Shown here one piece after another: positions 9,085-60,407 of a DNA stretch of 64,000 nucleotides. The notes under the pieces are model-generated. The model was not told the DNA's origin. It did not search any database and was given only the letters and a program-made list of their open reading frames with translations. Source of the stretch: Methylophilaceae bacterium (GTDB lineage: Bacteria; Pseudomonadota; Gammaproteobacteria; Burkholderiales; Methylophilaceae). The translations under genes were made by a program, and so were the position numbers. The first letter of the stretch is position 1; every line of letters starts with the position of its first letter. The stretch covers positions 100,310 through 164,309 of the forward strand of contig JAPKBG010000002.1 of assembly GCA_028823485.1 (NCBI GenBank). Direction: 5' to 3'.

Positions 9085-9256
9085 AGCCCATTTAACGCGA
9101 TTTAAGCCATCATTTAATGCTGGTTATGGAAAGCAAAAGATTTAGATTAAACCAGTTTAACCACACCTAGCACGGGCTTAATTACCTCATGCGAAAACTA
9201 AGCAATCCTAACTTAGCTGGTGTGATTTCTTATTTAGGGGGCGTAAAGGGGTGTGT

Positions 9257-43848: not shown

Positions 43849-44325
43849 TCAATCAATCACTGGTTTGATGGTCATTTCACCCTTATACAATCGCACATCC
43901 ATACGCCCCAAAAAGCTCATGCCTAATAGCACATCACCTTGCAGGCCTGGTGCTATTGAGGCGGAAACATTATTCGCCTCTAGCCCACCGAGTTTAACGG
44001 ATTCCAGCCTGACTAAATAACCGATTGCATCACCATTGGCGGTAGCCGTACGGATAGCTGAGACGCTTTTGAGTTGGAGTCTATCGGCAACGGCTTGAGA
44101 AATGGCAACGCCTGTTGCACCAGTATCAACCAGTACATTCACTTTCTGTCCGTTAATCAATGCCTCTGCACGATAGTGACCATCTAAGCCGCGTTTGAGT
44201 ACGACCTCTGCTTCTGTACCTAATGCATGCATTTTATTAGGGTTTTGAATATTATCTGCGAGGTAATAAATAACCGCGCCAAGACAGAGCCAAATGATGC
44301 TGAGGAAAAGACCGTTTTTTGACAT
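43849..44325 (-). CDS. Retropepsin-like aspartic protease, membrane-anchored (TIGR02281 type)
   Basis: 158 residues. N-terminal membrane segment (GLFLSIIWLCLGAVIYYL), then a single retroviral-type aspartic domain: NVLVDTGATGVAISQAVADR holds the catalytic DTGAT, and VLLGMSFLGRMDVR is the second signature. Such proteins act as dimers; substrates are unknown. Third gene of a minus-strand set with the phosphohexomutase (3 bp upstream) and iscX. Confidence 0.88.
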   Translation of the reverse strand: MSKNGLFLSIIWLCLGAVIYYLADNIQNPNKMHALGTEAEVVLKRGLDGHYRAEALINGQKVNVLVDTGATGVAISQAVADRLQLKSVSAIRTATANGDAIGYLVRLESVKLGGLEANNVSASIAPGLQGDVLLGMSFLGRMDVRLYKGEMTIKPVID

Positions 44326-44328
44326 GCG

Positions 44329-45711
44329 TTAGAAAGGCAGTGCAACACTTGGCGCTGCTGTCAAAATAACGGCTCTAAAAATTTCTTGAATGCGTTTCAA
44401 TGCCACTTCATTATCAGCTTCAAAGCGTAACACAATCACGGGTGTTGTATTGGAAGGCCGCATTAAACCAAAGCCATCTGTATATTCAACGCGTAAGCCA
44501 TCAATAGTTAACACTTCTGCATCTTCAAATGTGGCGGTATCTTGCAGGTGAGCAATTAATGCATGCGGCTCACCTTCTTGCATTTTTATATGTTGTTCAG
44601 GTGTGCTGACACTGTCAGGCAGTGCATTGAGTACAGCAGAAGGGTCATCAAAATGGCTCAGGATTTCTAATAAGCGCGCACCTGCATATAAACCATCATC
44701 AAAACCAAACCAGCGTTCTTTAAAGAATGTGTGGCCGCTCATTTCACCAGCTAGCGCTGCACCAGTTTCTTTCATTTTCGCTTTGACGAGCGAATGACCT
44801 GTTTTCCACATCAGCGGCTTACCGCCTCGTGCTTCAATCCATGGTGATAAATTACGTGTTGATTTAACGTCATAAATAATCGTAGCACCAGGCTCGCGTT
44901 TCAATACATCCTCAGCAAACAGTAATAATTGGCGATCAGGGTAAATGATATTGCCACCTTTAGTGACCACACCTAAGCGGTCACCATCACCGTCAAACGC
45001 AAGCCCGATTTCTGAGTCGCCAGTCCTAAGTGCATTAATTAAGTCCGTGAGATTATCTGGAACAGAAGGGTCGGGATGGTGGTTAGGGAAGTTGCCATCT
45101 ACTTCGCAAAACAACTCTTCAACCTCACAGCCTAATGCTTCGTAAAGCTTTTTAGCAAATGCACCAGCCACGCCATTCCCAGCATCCGCCGCAATTTTCA
45201 TTGGACGTGCAAGTTTGATGTGGTTGCTTATTATAGCGATATATTCATCATCAATATGATGGCTACTTTCTTGTCCTGCACCAGAAGCTAAATCATTATT
45301 TTCAATGCGTTGGCGTAAACCTTGTATGGCTTCTCCAGACAAGGCATCACCACCCAGTACCATTTTCAACCCATTGTAATCGGGTGGGTTATGGCTGCCT
45401 GTTACCATTACGCCACAGCTGGTTTTAAGTTGGTAGGCTGCGAAATAAACCACGGGTGTTGCCACTAAGCCTAAGTGGATGACATCGATACCTGCCTTAC
45501 GAATGCCACGAGAGAGTGCGGCGGCTAACTCAGGCCCTGATAGGCGTCCATCATAGCCAATGCAAATGGTTTTCTGTGCGCGGGCTAGGGCTTCACTGCC
45601 TAGTGCGTGTCCAATGGACTCAACAATATCTGGCGTCAGTGTTTTTCCAACAATGCCTCGAATATCGTAGGCTTTGAAAATTTCTTTAAAAAGGGATGTG
45701 TTGGTAGACAT
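44329..45711 (-). CDS. Phosphomannomutase/phosphoglucomutase (AlgC/ManB type)
   Basis: 460 residues, the usual length of the alpha-D-phosphohexomutase superfamily. Phosphoserine loop VMVTGSHNPPDYNGLKMV, metal-binding FDGDGDRLGVV, sugar-binding GEMSGHTFF and the C-terminal phosphate-binding region RPSNTTPVIVLRFEA. Converts mannose or glucose 6-phosphate to the 1-phosphate for surface polysaccharides. Begins 2 bp after iscX. Confidence 0.93.
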   Translation of the reverse strand: MSTNTSLFKEIFKAYDIRGIVGKTLTPDIVESIGHALGSEALARAQKTICIGYDGRLSGPELAAALSRGIRKAGIDVIHLGLVATPVVYFAAYQLKTSCGVMVTGSHNPPDYNGLKMVLGGDALSGEAIQGLRQRIENNDLASGAGQESSHHIDDEYIAIISNHIKLARPMKIAADAGNGVAGAFAKKLYEALGCEVEELFCEVDGNFPNHHPDPSVPDNLTDLINALRTGDSEIGLAFDGDGDRLGVVTKGGNIIYPDRQLLLFAEDVLKREPGATIIYDVKSTRNLSPWIEARGGKPLMWKTGHSLVKAKMKETGAALAGEMSGHTFFKERWFGFDDGLYAGARLLEILSHFDDPSAVLNALPDSVSTPEQHIKMQEGEPHALIAHLQDTATFEDAEVLTIDGLRVEYTDGFGLMRPSNTTPVIVLRFEADNEVALKRIQEIFRAVILTAAPSVALPF

Positions 45712-45713
45712 GT

Positions 45714-45908
45714 CTACTCAGACTCTTCAATCCAAGCCAATTGAATCGCTTCTAATATTTTTTCACCACAGTGTTCTTCGGTGTCATCAAAGCCATCTAA
45801 ATGCATCACCCATTCCATTAAGTCGGTAAAGCGAATGGTTTTAGGGTCGACATCTTCATGTTTGTCGTAAAGGTCTTCGGCGATTCGTTGTGTGTCTGTC
45901 CACTTCAT
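45714..45908 (-). CDS. iscX: Fe-S assembly accessory protein IscX
   Basis: 64 residues, acidic: MKWTDTQRIAEDLYDKHEDV, then KTIRFTDLMEWV and CGEKILEAIQLAWIEE match IscX/YfhJ, which binds IscS and iron and adjusts Fe-S cluster assembly. Here it is not in an isc cluster but heads the set iscX-phosphohexomutase-protease. A good sigma-70 promoter lies just upstream. Confidence 0.93.
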   Translation of the reverse strand: MKWTDTQRIAEDLYDKHEDVDPKTIRFTDLMEWVMHLDGFDDTEEHCGEKILEAIQLAWIEESE

Positions 45909-45940
45909 TACTAGTAATCTCTATTAATACTTAAAGATTG

Positions 45941-45969
45941 ATTATAGCCTGCTTGGAAATCATTTGAAA
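45941..45969 (-). promoter_or_regulatory. Sigma-70 promoter for iscX
   Basis: On the minus strand TTTCAA - 17 bp - TATAAT, about 33 bp before the iscX start codon. The -10 is perfect, the -35 weak. It sits immediately downstream of the terminator of the predicted small RNA, so iscX has its own start. Confidence 0.65.
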
Positions 45970-45973
45970 CGGC

Positions 45974-46002
45974 AAAAAAATCCCCAACCACACGGGCTGG
46001 GG
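45974..46002 (-). terminator. Strong intrinsic terminator (minus strand)
   Basis: 8-bp stem (one G:U), 5-nt loop and T7 tail on the minus strand. No protein-coding gene lies upstream of it on that strand within the gap. Confidence 0.85.
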
Positions 46003-46038
46003 AAAAGGGAGGAGCGAAACTTTGGAGAATTAAGCCTA
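45974..46038 (-). ncRNA. Predicted sigma-54/NtrC-dependent small RNA (about 64 nt)
   Basis: Bounded upstream by a sigma-54 promoter at 46049-46064 (start predicted near 46037) and downstream by an intrinsic terminator: CCCCAGCC (46002-45995), 5-nt loop, GGTTGGGG, then seven T (45980-45974). No open frame fits between them. The unpaired part contains GCUCCUCCC, complementary to Shine-Dalgarno sequences. Such layout (NtrC enhancer, -24/-12 promoter, pyrimidine-rich seed, U-tailed terminator) resembles nitrogen-regulated sRNAs of other proteobacteria in design, not in sequence. Expression is unproven. Confidence 0.6.
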
Positions 46039-46048
46039 GTTAATACTG

Positions 46049-46064
46049 AGCAAATGTTATGCCA
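46049..46064 (-). promoter_or_regulatory. Sigma-54 (-24/-12) promoter
   Basis: Minus strand TGGCATAACATTTGCT: GG and GC separated by exactly 10 bp, matching TGGCAY-N5-TTGCW. It points toward the terminator at 45974-46002, not toward glyA. Confidence 0.7.
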
Positions 46065-46133
46065 GTTATATTATTCAATTAAATCAATGTCTTGAAATAT
46101 CAGGGTGACCAGTTCTGCATTAACTGCAGGCGT

Positions 46134-46163
46134 TGCATTGTAATGGTGCATAGTTTTAGTGCA
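46134..46163. promoter_or_regulatory. Two overlapping NtrC-type binding sites
   Basis: TGCATTGTAATGGTGCA (46134-46150) and TGCATAGTTTTAGTGCA (46147-46163) both fit the NtrC pattern TGCAYYA-N3-TGGTGCA closely and share four bases. They lie about 90-105 bp upstream of the sigma-54 promoter's -12 box on the minus strand, a normal enhancer distance. Confidence 0.6.
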
Positions 46164-46273
46164 TTGTTTGCATGGCTGCTAATGCTTTATATTGAAATCA
46201 TCAGTATTAGTAACTAAGCTAGCATGATAAAATACTAAATTATTCTACTAGTCATTTGGAACCATTTAATCAT

Positions 46274-47521
46274 ATGTTTAGCCATTCAAAAAAACTTAAT
46301 ATGACTGACCCAGCAATTGCAAAATTGATTGATGCTGAAGTAGAGCGTCAAGAGCAGCATATCGAACTGATTGCTTCTGAAAATTACACCAGCCCTGCGG
46401 TGATGGATGCGCAAGGCTCGCAGCTCACTAATAAATATGCAGAAGGCTATCCAGGTAAGCGTTTTTATGGTGGTTGTGAGTTTGTTGATGAAGTTGAACA
46501 ATTAGGCATTGATCGTTTAAAAGCTTTATATGGTGCTGAGTATGCCAACGTACAACCACACTCAGGTTCGCAAGCGAATCAGGCGGTGTATTTTGCGATT
46601 CTAAAACCTGGCGACACGATTATGGGTATGAATCTAGGTGACGGTGGTCATTTAACGCACGGCTCACCGGCTAATATTTCAGGTAAGTTGTTCAATATCG
46701 TGGCTTATGGTTTAAATGAAAATGAAGAAATTGATTACGATGAAATGGAACGCGTAGCAATGGAAACCAAACCAAAATTATTGGTGGGCGGCGCTTCTGC
46801 TTATTCACTACGTTTTGATTGGGCGCGTATGGCTGAAATTGCCAAAAAAACAGGTGCTTATTTCATGGTTGATATGGCGCATTACTCTGGTTTGATTGCA
46901 GGGGGTGTTTATCCTAACCCAGTGCCACATGCTGATTTTGTGACATCGACAACGCATAAAACATTGCGCGGCCCACGTGGCGGCATCATCATGGCAAAAG
47001 AAGAGTATGCTAAAAAGCTAAACTCAAGCGTATTCCCAAGTTTGCAAGGGGGTCCGTTAATGCATGTGATGGCAGCTAAGGCAACCGCTTTCTTAGAAGC
47101 GGCAACACCTGATTTTAAAGCCTATCAAGAGCAAGTGCTTAAGAATGCAGTCGTGATGGCGGAAACCTTAACAGCGCGTGGCTTACGTATCATCTCTGGC
47201 CGTACAGAATCGCATGTATTCTTAGTCGATTTGCGTGCTAAAGGCTTAACAGGTAAAGCTGCTGATGCGGCACTTGGCTTGGCACATATCACCGTCAATA
47301 AAAATGCAATTCCAAACGATCCAGAAAGCCCGTTTGTGACTTCTGGTATTCGTCTTGGCTCACCAGCAATAACGACACGTGGCTTCAAGGAAGAGGAAGC
47401 TAAGCTGGTCGCTAACCTAGTGGCTGATGTCTTAGATAATCCAGAGGATGAGGCAACGATTAATGCAGTGAAAGCAAAAGTACATGCATTGACTTCACGC
47501 TTTCCTGTTTACGGCGCTTAA
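46274..47521 (+). CDS. glyA: Serine hydroxymethyltransferase
   Basis: 415 residues from ATG 46274 ([20 protein letters not shown]); a TTG at 46256 would add six residues. Neither has a strong ribosome site. PLP enzyme converting serine and tetrahydrofolate to glycine and methylene-THF; in serine-cycle-free methylotrophs it serves C1 and amino-acid metabolism. Motifs: [32 protein letters not shown], and the PLP-lysine segment [15 protein letters not shown]. Followed by nrdR, ribD and tatD in one direction. Confidence 0.96.
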
Positions 47522-47535
47522 GGCAGTAAACACTC

Positions 47536-47982
47536 ATGATATGTCCTTTTTGCAGTGCAGATGATACGCAGGTTGTCGATTCGCGTGTGAATGACGAAGG
47601 CGATTCGGTTCGCCGCCGCCGTCGCTGTGGTAGTTGTGATAAACGATTCACGACTTATGAAACAGCCGACTTACGCTTGCCACAAGTGATTAAAGGTAAT
47701 GGCAACCGCGAAGACTTTAAAGACGAAAAGTTAAGAGAAGGCTTTTTCTTAGCGTTACATAAACGACCTGTATCAGCTGAGTTGATGGAAGAATCGCTAC
47801 AACATATCCGCAGTAAGTTGTTAATGCTGGGTGAGCGTGAAGTGCCATCACGTCAAATTGGCGAACTAGTGATGGCCGAACTACGTAAGCTGGATAAAGT
47901 GGCTTATATTCGGTTTGCCTCGGTTTATCGCAGCTTCCAAGATGTAGATGATTTCCGTGACGTGCTTAAAGACTTAAAATAA
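47536..47982 (+). CDS. nrdR: Transcriptional repressor NrdR
   Basis: 148 residues. N-terminal zinc ribbon ([15 protein letters not shown] and [17 protein letters not shown]) and an ATP-cone (about residues 49-139, [13 protein letters not shown]). It represses ribonucleotide reductase genes when dATP is bound. It lies 15 bp after glyA and before ribD, a conserved order. Confidence 0.97.
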
Positions 47983-48000
47983 GGCCTTTCAAACAACATC

Positions 48001-49098
48001 ATGACAGACTTCACGCCTGACGATCATCGTTTTATGACACAGGCTTTGCGGTTAGCTGAGCAAGGCTTGTACACTACCATGCCCAATCCACGCGTTGGCT
48101 GTGTCGTCGTTAAGGATGGCAAAGTGGTTGGAGAGAGCGCACACCTCAAAGCAGGTATGCCACATGCTGAAGTGCATGCTTTAAATCAAGCTGGCGACCT
48201 AGCCAAGGGTGCAGTTGCTTATGTCACATTAGAACCTTGTGGTCATCACGGCCGCACACCACCTTGTGCCGAAGCGCTGATTAAAGCCGGTGTTGCAAAA
48301 GTTATCGTTGCCATGCAAGACCCCAACCCTTTAGTTTCGGGCCAAGGTGTTGCTGCTTTATACGCGGCAGGTATTCAAGTCTCTACAGGCCTTATGCAAC
48401 AGCAAGCGCATGACCTCAATGCTGGCTTTGTTGCGCGCATGGCACAGCAGAAACCATTTGTCCGTAGCAAAATTGCCGCCAGCCTCGATGGTAAAACGGC
48501 TTTAAGTAATGGCGTGAGTCAATGGATTACTGGCCCAGCTGCGCGTGCAGATGTGCAACATTGGCGCGCTAGATCGTGCGCTATTCTCACGGGTATTGGC
48601 ACTGTATTACAAGATAATCCAAGCTTAACCGTACGTGAAATCGACATTGACCGTCAGCCATTGTGCGTTATTGTGGATAGCCGCTTACGCATGCCACTGA
48701 ATGCAAAACTGCTCAAGAATCAACACGTATTAATTGCCTATGCGACAGATGAAGCACAAAAGGCCGAACAATTAACTGCAATGGGAATTTCTTTGCTTTG
48801 TATCCCGAATGCGGATGGTAAAGTCTGCCTTCAGAGCCTATTGAAACACCTTGCCAGCACGGAAGTGAATGAGGTGATGGTTGAGGGCGGTGAAGGGCTG
48901 AATGGCGCACTAATGGCGCTTAAATTAATTGATGAACTGGTGATCTTTTATGCGCCCAAGCTGATGGGTGGTGATGGTAAAGGGATGTTTGCTTTACCTG
49001 CATTGCAAAACATGGAAGAAGTCATTTCGATTGATGTCTATGATGTACGTCAATTTGGAAATGATATAAGGGTGTTAGCTAAGTGTGTGTCAGCGTGA
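48001..49098 (+). CDS. ribD: Riboflavin biosynthesis deaminase/reductase RibD
   Basis: 365 residues. N-terminal deaminase with zinc motif HAEVHAL and CGHHGRTPPCAEALIKAG; C-terminal reductase with RSKIAASLDGKTAL and MVEGGEGLNGALM. It carries out the second and third steps of riboflavin synthesis from GTP. The stop overlaps the tatD start codon (GTGA). Confidence 0.97.
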   Translation: MTDFTPDDHRFMTQALRLAEQGLYTTMPNPRVGCVVVKDGKVVGESAHLKAGMPHAEVHALNQAGDLAKGAVAYVTLEPCGHHGRTPPCAEALIKAGVAKVIVAMQDPNPLVSGQGVAALYAAGIQVSTGLMQQQAHDLNAGFVARMAQQKPFVRSKIAASLDGKTALSNGVSQWITGPAARADVQHWRARSCAILTGIGTVLQDNPSLTVREIDIDRQPLCVIVDSRLRMPLNAKLLKNQHVLIAYATDEAQKAEQLTAMGISLLCIPNADGKVCLQSLLKHLASTEVNEVMVEGGEGLNGALMALKLIDELVIFYAPKLMGGDGKGMFALPALQNMEEVISIDVYDVRQFGNDIRVLAKCVSA

Positions 49099-57813: not shown

Positions 57814-58842
57814 TTAGCTAATATAGTTATCGTGCGCGATAGCAGCTTCTTTTCCAGATGAGCGCTTAAATGACTTTTTATATAAACCAATTGTTTCAGC
57901 CATCCGCCTAAACGGACTTTTGCTAAAGTAGGCTGCAAGTAAAAGTAACCCAGCTAAAGAAGCTAATATCCAGTCAATGCTAAATGGTGCCACTGCACGG
58001 CTGGCTGGTTTTTGATTTTTCATCGCTGCCAGTACGCTATGTACGGTATCACCATGTACATATAAGGCACCGACTTCTTTGCCAATTTCTTTTAGGTAAC
58101 TTTCATCTAATTTCGAAATATAACGATCGTACTCTCCAAAGGCGACGCTATCATTACGTGTGCCGAGATTTGACTCTGAAATTTGCGCAATTCCGGGTTG
58201 TAACGCAAAGCTTTCATTCGACCAGAAGCCAATGACTTGATTATCTTGACTGAGTTTAGGAATAGCCGCACCTTCTAAGCTACCAATACCGACAAATAGC
58301 CAGTCTTTTGCATCCTGGACACCAGCTAAATCTTTTGTATTAAAAACGTGTAATCGTGGTGCTTCTTCACCATCAGTAAATAAGACGACTTGCGCTGTTT
58401 CAGGAAAAGCGCGAATGGTTCTAGAGATGCTGTATAAGTTTTCACGAATACGACTATTGCCAGACCATGCGGTACGCCAATCTAAATGGTCGATGGTGTC
58501 TTGTATCGCATGAAAGTTTTCACACACTTCAATCGGGTAATAAAGCGCGGCAGTACTGACGCCAGCAAATAATGAGATGCCGACTTTCGTGCCACAAGGC
58601 AAGGATGAAACCACTTCGTGCATCAGATGCTGTGTATGCACCATTCGGGATATTTTTTTGCTGCCCACGGGTACATCAGGTGTGTTCATGCTTTGTGAAA
58701 TATCTGCAACCAGCATATAGGTGAATATATCATGCTTAACGGGCACGGTAGGACGAAACATGGCAATAACCAATAGCAGTAAAGCACCGCCCAGTAAGGC
58801 GGAATCTTTATTCTGTTTCAAAAATTGAATAATTTTTTTCAT
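57814..58842 (-). CDS. mxaL: Methanol dehydrogenase maturation protein MxaL (vWA domain)
   Basis: 342 residues. N-terminal membrane helix (SALLGGALLLLVIAMF), periplasmic von Willebrand A domain with the MIDAS DISQSMNTPD and VVLFTDGEEAPRL, and a C-terminal membrane helix (ILASLAGLLLLAAYF) with a short basic tail. Last gene of mxaRSACKL; in methylotrophs these proteins are needed for calcium insertion into PQQ methanol dehydrogenase. No mxaD follows. A short TAGCTAA/TTAGCTA hairpin overlaps its stop. Confidence 0.88.
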   Translation of the reverse strand: MKKIIQFLKQNKDSALLGGALLLLVIAMFRPTVPVKHDIFTYMLVADISQSMNTPDVPVGSKKISRMVHTQHLMHEVVSSLPCGTKVGISLFAGVSTAALYYPIEVCENFHAIQDTIDHLDWRTAWSGNSRIRENLYSISRTIRAFPETAQVVLFTDGEEAPRLHVFNTKDLAGVQDAKDWLFVGIGSLEGAAIPKLSQDNQVIGFWSNESFALQPGIAQISESNLGTRNDSVAFGEYDRYISKLDESYLKEIGKEVGALYVHGDTVHSVLAAMKNQKPASRAVAPFSIDWILASLAGLLLLAAYFSKSPFRRMAETIGLYKKSFKRSSGKEAAIAHDNYIS

Positions 58843-58878
58843 GTTATTGCTCTATTTCAATCGTACTATTTAATCACA

Positions 58879-59433
58879 TTAAGGCAAGCCAACTGGGATG
58901 TTACTCATGATCATACCAGGCGAGTCAGAGTCACTCATGCCTGGTGTCGGCACTTCTGGTAACAAGCTCAGGACACGGTCCAAATTACGACGTGTACCCC
59001 AATTGCTGTTATCGAGCTTAACTGCTTTTTTATAAGCCGTTTTTGCTTCTGATAGTAAGTACTCGACTTCATCTCGTGCTCTCAGATCATTTCCGCTATC
59101 CACACGTAGCGCTTTCAGGAAGAACATATTGCCAATGTTATGAAATACTGCAGCACGATTGCTCGCGGTACTGGTTTGCGTTAAGCCTGTGAATAGCTTA
59201 GTAGACTCTTTGTAATACTCTTTTTTTGCCAACCAGTAAGCCTGCGCATATTTGGCCTCGTAACTCAGCTTGTCTGTTTTAGGTGGATCACTCGTCATGA
59301 CCGCTTCATTGAAGCTGTTAATTTGATCAAGCCGGTTCACTTGCTGTGCAATGCCAGCGCCAGAAAGCACAACAACGATGCCTAGCCCCCAGGTGAGTTT
59401 GCTGACCGTTAAAAATGTTAAGCCGAGCGCCAT
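58879..59433 (-). CDS. mxaK: Methanol dehydrogenase maturation protein MxaK
   Basis: 184 residues. One N-terminal membrane helix (TWGLGIVVVLSGAGIAQ), then a helical, TPR-like periplasmic part (AQAYWLAKKEYYKESTKLF, AVFHNIGNMFFLKALRV, AKTAYKKAVKLDNSNWGTRR). GGAGAA precedes the ATG, and it overlaps the end of mxaC by 16 bp. Assigned from position, size and helical repeat character. Confidence 0.85.
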   Translation of the reverse strand: MALGLTFLTVSKLTWGLGIVVVLSGAGIAQQVNRLDQINSFNEAVMTSDPPKTDKLSYEAKYAQAYWLAKKEYYKESTKLFTGLTQTSTASNRAAVFHNIGNMFFLKALRVDSGNDLRARDEVEYLLSEAKTAYKKAVKLDNSNWGTRRNLDRVLSLLPEVPTPGMSDSDSPGMIMSNIPVGLP

Positions 59434-60407
59434 GTTCTGTTCTCCAAATATTTCACACCAAGTAATAATGCAATCATCAATACTGCTAAAAAATAAAATA
59501 ATTGTGTAAAGTTTTTACCTGGAATTTTTTCTAGATAAGTAATCGGTTTCTTCTCTTTTTTATTAATATCAAAAATAGCCGCTTCCAATGATTTTGGGTC
59601 TTCCGCTTCATATGCTTGAAAGGGTGTATCTAATGTTTGGAAGAACTTATGCAGCTCAATTTTCACAGGTGGCAATTCGATTTCATTCCAATCTTCATAT
59701 TTAGGGTCAAAAATGCTAGTGCCCCCCGGTTCCCTCAATACAATCCAGTACAGGGTAATATTATGTTCACTCAGCCATGCTTTGAGTTTTTGTTGCACAA
59801 CGCCATCCACACGGCCAGCACCATCGGAAATCAAAATAATGGCGCGAGAGCCGGAATCAGGCACATCTTTGAACTGTGCAACGGCACCAGTGAGGCCAGC
59901 ACCAATATTGGTTTGGAATAGCGCATTGCCAGCAGTGGCTTTAATCGCAGCTAGGATCGCTTCTCGACTATCGGTGAACGGTAACACATACATGGCTGAG
60001 TTACTAAATGTAGTAATGCCAATCATGTCGTTTTTACGCGCATTCACAAACTCGGTCATTAATCGACTGGCTGCCGCAGATTTGGTTTCACCGACATTGC
60101 CAGAAGCAACACCGCCAGCAAATGCATCATCCATACTGGCGCTTCTATCTAATACCAAAGCGATTTGTGCACCAATGCCTAGCTTTTCTACTTTTTGCTC
60201 TAAAGTGTGTGGGTCAGCTAAGCCAACGATGATGCAGGCAATGCTAACAGTGGCTAATATTTTAAGTAGTAATCCAATCAATTCGGATAGCGGATCAGGC
60301 GGTAGCATCTCTACCCATGAATAGCTGCGCGTATGTGACCGCTCAAGCAATATCGGTAACAACGCAAGCGGTAACAACCACAGTATTAATGGATGGGTGA
60401 AAGCCAT
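59418..60407 (-). CDS. mxaC: Methanol dehydrogenase maturation protein MxaC (vWA domain)
   Basis: 329 residues; BatA-like layout with two N-terminal membrane helices (LILWLLPLALLPIL; LLLKILATVSIACIIVGLA), a vWA domain with MIDAS LVLDRSASMDDA and AIILISDGAGRVDG, and a C-terminal helix (LFYFLAVLMIALLLGV). It starts directly after the mxaA stop and overlaps mxaK. Confidence 0.87.
   Translation of the reverse strand: MAFTHPLILWLLPLALLPILLERSHTRSYSWVEMLPPDPLSELIGLLLKILATVSIACIIVGLADPHTLEQKVEKLGIGAQIALVLDRSASMDDAFAGGVASGNVGETKSAAASRLMTEFVNARKNDMIGITTFSNSAMYVLPFTDSREAILAAIKATAGNALFQTNIGAGLTGAVAQFKDVPDSGSRAIILISDGAGRVDGVVQQKLKAWLSEHNITLYWIVLREPGGTSIFDPKYEDWNEIELPPVKIELHKFFQTLDTPFQAYEAEDPKSLEAAIFDINKKEKKPITYLEKIPGKNFTQLFYFLAVLMIALLLGVKYLENRTWRSA

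Follow-up and report, generated by a model that had tools for sequence, protein, structure and literature searches.

The segment between iscX and glyA in the window, the whole 64,000-nucleotide (64 kb) stretch of Methylophilaceae DNA analysed here, is probably the gene of a trans-acting small RNA (sRNA) of about 65 nt, controlled by NtrC, IHF and sigma54, with a loop that would block ribosome sites. The predicted promoter, its spacing, the loop and the terminator are conserved beside glyA in several genera. To our knowledge, little is understood of how methylotrophs adjust their carbon intake to the nitrogen available, and a nitrogen-regulated RNA that matches the ribosome site of methanol dehydrogenase would, if true, be a direct carbon/nitrogen mechanism. 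It would also join two known ideas in one family, namely sRNAs driven by NtrC and RpoN and anti-Shine-Dalgarno sRNAs.

Layout of the iscX-glyA segment

The features of the segment are listed below. Genera are given as codes, with g1 being the genus of the window, and G000 denotes the genome of the window.

45714-45908, minus strand: iscX, a TIGR03412 match
45941-45968, minus strand: TTCAAA-16-TATAAT, a sigma70-like promoter for iscX that follows the sRNA terminator
45974-46003, minus strand: intrinsic terminator, 9-bp stem (46003-45981) and T7 ending at 45974
45974-46038, minus strand: predicted sRNA of about 65 nt, its start placed according to the promoter position (+/-2)
46007-46014, minus strand: CUCCUCCC, the anti-Shine-Dalgarno stretch of the sequence-only reading, kept in g1, partly in g24, and in the glgA-orn sister RNA
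46022-46028, minus strand: UCUCCAA, the conserved loop and anti-Shine-Dalgarno core of the short 5' hairpin, with CUCCAA as the loop within AAUUCUCCAAAGUU
46049-46064, minus strand: putative sigma54 (-24/-12) promoter TGGCATAACATTTGCT, a pattern match conserved at the glyA junction
46082-46094, minus strand: IHF-type site CAAGACATTGATT, 9/9 positions, 30 bp upstream of the -24 element, between palindromes and promoter
46134-46150, minus strand: NtrC-like palindrome TGCACCATTACAATGCA, the best site, 10/12 consensus positions, 86 bp upstream of the -24 element
46147-46163, minus strand: TGCACTAAAACTATGCA, a second NtrC-like palindrome that overlaps the first and lies 99 bp upstream of the -24 element
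46274-47521, plus strand: glyA (serine hydroxymethyltransferase, SHMT), divergent

An earlier sequence-only reading of this segment had proposed most of the arrangement. The minus-strand -24/-12 element is present as claimed and fits the sigma54 pattern, GG-N10-GC with TGGCAY...TTGC. The two overlapping palindromes lie where they were described (46134-46163 together), and the RNA of about 64 nt agrees with the predicted length. Likewise, the statement that no reading frame fits is borne out, as no ORF of at least 50 aa was found between iscX and glyA. The terminator is there with its T7, and its stem has nine pairs rather than the claimed eight. The IHF-type site, the UCUCCAA loop and the sigma70-like iscX promoter had been missed. 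The predicted RNA has a folding z of -2.1 to -2.2.

RpoN, NtrC (above its curated cut-off), Hfq and IhfA are all encoded in the window's genome, with ihfA located inside the window itself. ntrC is found in 6/6 genomes of the genus (over the TIGR01818 cut-off), the window genome's copy lying on another contig (G000:C3), and hfq in 5/6, the sixth genome being 48% complete. In the family as a whole, rpoN is present in 176 of 187 genomes. In the proposed mechanism, phosphorylated NtrC would activate the sigma54-type promoter under nitrogen limitation, and IHF would bend the DNA between the NtrC-type sites and the promoter. Transcription would start at about 46038 and end at the 45974 terminator. 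The UCUCCAA hairpin loop would then pair with Shine-Dalgarno regions and repress the mRNAs, possibly with the help of Hfq.

Within the window alone, the counts of promoter, palindromes and terminator are not beyond chance. The promoter pattern is expected 0.41 times in 64 kb and was seen in 35/100 shuffles, the palindrome pattern is expected 1.62 times and occurred at least twice in 47/100 shuffles, and the region 44000-48500 has four terminator-like sites versus 4.9 in shuffles. As the promoter and palindrome counts are unsurprising in the window, the claim depends on comparison, and the locus stands beyond chance because its arrangement is conserved in relatives. This conservation at the junction supports the proposal that the sRNA has a gene of its own, served by NtrC-type sites and a sigma54 promoter.

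Conservation beside glyA and the upstream sites

A DNA search of 187 family genomes returned seven genomes at E <= 0.001, namely that of the window, two more from g1 and four in which the match is short. IscX, which was found in 173/187 genomes, was used as the anchor. The loci examined were 67 chosen by iscX alone (30 + 37), 23 chosen by the promoter/loop pattern (the pattern-positive G066 and G069 being already counted among the 30), and three from g24. From 86 junction loci, five without an anchor were dropped, and matches that fell within glyA or genes downstream were not counted. In 28 of the 67 iscX-chosen loci, a -24/-12 element is followed by UCUCC within 30-60 nt. These elements (22 TGG, six AGG or GGG) lie between iscX and glyA and point away from glyA. 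Among 32 promoter-like elements in the iscX-chosen loci, 28 carry UCUCC and the other four look like chance. These four, TGG-type matches near iscX, were set aside for having no UCUCC downstream; two of them (L198 and L218) fall within the 3'-terminal part of a coding frame, the match at L189 is weak, and L147 comes from a g14 genome whose copy sits elsewhere.

In all, 54 genomes from six genera (g1, g14, g18, g19, g22, and g24) have the promoter and the UCUCC loop next to glyA/iscX; these genomes are related and hence not independent, and some of them were selected using the UCUCC motif itself. The set was assembled as 48 + 6 loci, and the contig of L181 stops before glyA. Outside g24, both ends were found in 19 loci that bear the promoter, and in these the glyA motif is 429-543 bp from iscX. 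Where the glyA-iscX gap is short, at 194-287 bp (12 loci), no promoter was found; the combination of promoter and loop is also missing from seven loci whose gap is long, at 353-521 bp. In G040, which belongs to the window's genus, glyA-iscX is retained and the RNA element is absent.

In g24, a gene that we take to be OYE-like from its protein separates the RNA from iscX, and many of the g14 genomes have an ORF of about 1.3 kb in that position, while the RNA still adjoins glyA in both genera. Because these genes intervene on the iscX side, the RNA is tied to glyA and not to iscX. Its place directly upstream of iscX on the common strand could otherwise make it an iscX leader or attenuator instead of a free sRNA. 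However, the RNA is set off from iscX by a terminator and by a sigma70-like promoter that gives iscX a promoter-like element of its own, and together with the intervening genes these features make the leader reading barely credible. The company that the element keeps with glyA could instead mean that the NtrC sites serve glyA, and thereby serine/glycine metabolism, with the minus-strand promoter being incidental. Against this, the NtrC-like sites keep a set distance from the minus-strand promoter, in most cases 97-103 bp, and conservation extends to the loop and terminator, which renders service to glyA highly improbable.

For scoring, the NtrC consensus TGCACC-N5-GGTGCA, given as TGCACCAAAATGGTGCA, and the IHF consensus YAAN4TTGATW were used. 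In the 250 bp upstream of 48 loci, the mean best NtrC-like score against this consensus is 9.4/12 versus 7.5 in dinucleotide shuffles. A site with p <= 0.05 is present in 29/48 loci, and in 30/48 the start of the best site is 95-113 bp ahead of the -24 element. Scores of at least 9/12 at 95-113 bp occur in 31/54 loci, whereas 300 mononucleotide shuffles gave a mean of 0.21 and a maximum of three. It is the second palindrome of the window, TGCACTAAAACTATGCA, that occupies the position where relatives retain the site, with counterparts at 97-100 bp in L130-L132.

The sites at this fixed place are distributed by genus. They are present in g1 (4/4), g14 (20/20), and part of g19 (6/11), where they match the NtrC consensus at up to 12/12 scored positions, and in g18 (1/15), g24 (0/3) and g22 (0/1) they are rare or missing. 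The sequence-only reading had expected promoter and NtrC sites to persist in relatives that keep the junction; the promoter does so in many of them, whereas the sites do so in g1, g14, and part of g19, mostly fail in g18 and are missing from all four g22 and g24 loci. On this count the reading withstands the refutation test that it had set itself. Because NtrC-type sites are weak or absent in g18, g22, g24, and 5/11 of g19, another activator may act there in place of NtrC.

An activator other than NtrC could also serve the sRNA throughout, the TGCAC palindromes belonging to another enhancer-binding protein and the signal not being nitrogen. The sister RNAs described below have the same promoter type, and in this control the best NtrC-like site falls at that place in 0/44 promoters. 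The glyA-type promoters of g18, g22, and g24 mostly go without the site, and the window's genome encodes at least one other full-length NtrC-type regulator (G000:C22), which scores below the NtrC cut-off. On the other hand, the consensus-like sites of g1, g14, and part of g19 keep a fixed spacing, and a general role for a different activator is considered unlikely. In 41/48 homologues the best IHF-type match lies 29-32 bp ahead of the -24 element, and all four g1 loci have 9/9 positions; single-locus p-values are mostly >0.05, and the evidence is the constant position, not the score.

As a separate observation, three glyA-type promoters of g24 (L035, L036, and L037) have a large inverted repeat, GGTGGTTA...TAACCACC, upstream and no NtrC-type sites.

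The RNA and its sister between glgA and orn

UCUCC lies in the hairpin loop of 54/54 glyA-type members. The conserved core of the RNA, as judged from the members compared, is the loop UCUCCAA and not GCUCCUCCC, which the sequence-only reading had taken for the functional motif and which is lost in members from g14, g18, and g19. CUCCUCCC was not found in the g14, g18, and g19 members compared, and one g18 member has CUUCCUCC. A conserved seed in a loop and a rho-independent terminator are the marks of a base-pairing trans sRNA, and the window RNA has both. An RNA that titrates a protein instead of pairing with mRNAs could also be short, C/U-rich and sigma54-driven, like CrcZ, a sigma54-driven RNA that titrates Hfq. 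By eye, however, no repeated protein-binding motif was noticed, and the conserved part is one loop sequence complementary to Shine-Dalgarno sites; titration is thus very unlikely, and base pairing is the preferred function.

The glyA-type stem varies in step (AGCG/CGCU, AGUG/CACU, AGCA/UGCU, GCGU/ACGC, and GAGC/GCUC), and its mean score is 10.0 versus 7.6 when shuffled. On the other hand, p <= 0.05 is reached in only 7/28 segments and in none of the three from g1. The covariance model R3, whose training set included two close homologues of the window RNA, matches that RNA at G000:C27:146283-146341 with 35.6 bits. At E <= 0.05, R3 finds 8/45 glyA-type loci, a count that includes four g1 loci, two of which had been used for training; as so few are found, R3 undercounts the glyA type. 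Model R1 was dropped, as it was built on an alignment with a wrong RNAalifold structure, and the searches were made without it. No Rfam family reached its gathering score at 20 representative loci. Elsewhere in the window, at 9160-9240, the int-alpA RNA (RF02996) matches over its gathering score.

A sister RNA with a sigma54-type promoter recurs across Methylophilaceae, mostly between glgA and orn, as indicated by pattern and model matches. The pattern of promoter plus CUCCUCC was found in 31/187 genomes (35 places), versus one match for a reversed control pattern. Of these places, 18 were aligned and 17 were set aside by eye as chance or other RNAs, with L040 among the latter matching R3 later. 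The covariance model R2, built of the RNA alone from four g4 sequences, matches 145/187 genomes and 24/24 genera at the loose limit of E <= 0.5. By protein motifs, 44 sister loci comprise 42 with glgA upstream on the same strand, 39 with orn (oligoribonuclease) converging downstream, and 38 with both, the names glgA and orn resting on NCBIfam for one locus. The sister in the window's genome is at G000:C9:98890-98958 (L075 891-959).

The sister promoter is present in 47/49 aligned R2 matches as TGGY-N8-HGC, mostly 26 nt before the RNA (shuffle rate 0.5%), and in 34 of the 36 matches that were not chosen by the promoter pattern. In an alignment made to fit the structure and composed mostly of sister-type sequences, 12/13 pairs have changes on both sides that keep the pairing, and 0/500 shuffles were as high. 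The glyA and sister types have in common the promoter, the UCUCC(AA) loop, and the terminator, with the glyA-type stem being the shorter.

An order-wide search with R3 at E <= 0.01 matched 62/399 genomes, seven of them Methylophilaceae. Among 23 loci fetched outside the family, three (family f36; L104, L105, and L122) have a sigma54-type promoter 26-28 nt before an CCUCCUCC RNA. Further anti-Shine-Dalgarno RNAs with a sigma54-type promoter and longer 5' parts were seen at other places (L086, L087, L091, and L094), the promoter being 49-75 nt ahead of the model match. In other families, R3 matches at L101, L106, L110, L111, and L112 lie directly behind a gene whose C-terminus we liken to that of amtB. 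These 3'UTR matches have a UCUCC- or UCUCUCCC-type stretch and a terminator, no sigma54 promoter was found at them, and they are possibly an sRNA released from a nitrogen-regulated mRNA.

Candidate targets and known systems

The conserved loop is complementary to the Shine-Dalgarno core with its 5' extension (UUUGGAGA). xoxF (methanol dehydrogenase) is a possible though rather doubtful target. Taking the best xoxF match in each of 35 genomes, with one further g24 genome left out, the ribosome site is CUUUGGAG, which matches the loop, in 16/16 loci of g1, g14, g18, and g19. It is CUAUGGAG or CUACGGAG in 19/19 loci of g2, g7, g12, g13, g15, g20, g22, and g24, where the loop match is 0/19. In G043, a g1 relative, the xoxF ribosome site would form 12 consecutive pairs with the window-type loop, and UUUGGAGA is present in 4/15 further xoxF-type paralogue loci. 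g22 combines the loop UCUCCG with xoxF CGGAG, which is one matching change, and g24 has the different loop UCUCCCA and the xoxF site CUAUGGAG. In two g18 genomes (G141 and G158), the glyA-type RNA is absent and xoxF CUUUGGAG is kept. The xoxF leader upstream of the ribosome site is likewise conserved, and the site difference follows genus groups and may go back to a single change at clade level. A search of the window's assembly, which is 86% complete, found no xoxF.

In the window's genome, UUUGGAGA precedes the ATG in transaldolase and other genes, of which two more are presumably rpmH and rpmB. One candidate site lies in the window.

59431-59448, minus strand: predicted target site TTTGGAGAACAGAACATG, before ORF 58879-59433

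This ORF is flanked by two VWA-domain genes (57814-60407), a cluster which we take to be mxa. Such predictions rest on 8-12 nt of complementarity, and a strong Shine-Dalgarno site contains GGAG in any case. Per-genome counts of TTTGGAGA-N-ATG were discarded as target evidence because the pattern used as control contains no Shine-Dalgarno core, and duplex energies, having no shuffled control, were kept out of the evidence.

The proposed targets are xoxF in relatives, and transaldolase and the mxa-like gene in the window's genome. Plausibly, the logic would be one of carbon/nitrogen balance, in which short nitrogen leads to less C1 oxidation and sugar-phosphate flux. A wider and still more tentative proposal is a Methylophilaceae network of sigma54-controlled anti-Shine-Dalgarno RNAs, the glyA-side RNA under NtrC and the glgA-orn RNA under another activator, whose common UCUCCAA loop would throttle xoxF and other C1 genes and couple methanol oxidation to nitrogen status in translation.

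The published systems compared here are taken from excerpts of the papers cited. RF02278, the Betaproteobacteria toxic small RNA (bdhR1, ncS03/05/27/62), is related to Bordetella S17S (PMC11722255; PMC5688073). Like the window RNA, it is short and has an intrinsic terminator and C/U-rich unpaired stretches, which in S17S match ribosome sites (PMC11722255; PMC5688073). The RF02278 model gives the window RNA 21.9 bits versus a gathering score of 50, which does not make it a member, and in contrast to RF02278 the window RNA has a -24/-12 promoter at its predicted start.

The Sinorhizobium cuckoo RNAs (alpha-r14, NfeR1) resemble the window RNA in their unpaired anti-Shine-Dalgarno motif and their link to NtrC (PMC10746234). 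Each of their three hairpins carries CCUCCUCCC, and they are transcribed from a sigma70 promoter that NtrC represses (PMC10746234). In contrast, the window RNA has one weak hairpin with UCUCCAA followed by the terminator, and a sigma54-type promoter with predicted activation. It is filed in neither class, because the RF02278 score failed and the three-hairpin cuckoo layout is absent.

Pseudomonas NrsZ is similar in the predicted control, being made by NtrB/C and RpoN under nitrogen limitation, and is about 226 nt long, processed, located beside ntrC and an activator of rhlA (PMC8395346). The window RNA, on the contrary, is about 65 nt long, lies between iscX and glyA with no ntrC adjoining, and is a predicted repressor. 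GlnZ is the name of the sRNA from the 3'UTR of glutamine synthetase mRNA. In Enterobacteriaceae, this sRNA is nitrogen-linked and balances carbon and nitrogen (PMC9731577). It is released from the mRNA, whereas the window RNA has a predicted promoter of its own. Burkholderia NcS25 was rejected as a sigma54 sRNA, as no promoter of this type ahead of ncS25 is reported in the excerpted text of its paper.

A description of such an RNA family beside glyA was not found in searches of the open-licence PMC literature. Anti-Shine-Dalgarno sRNAs and NtrC/RpoN-driven sRNAs are already known, and their combination at a conserved place beside glyA did not turn up in these searches. By analogy, we infer that the window RNA would work like the known anti-Shine-Dalgarno sRNAs.
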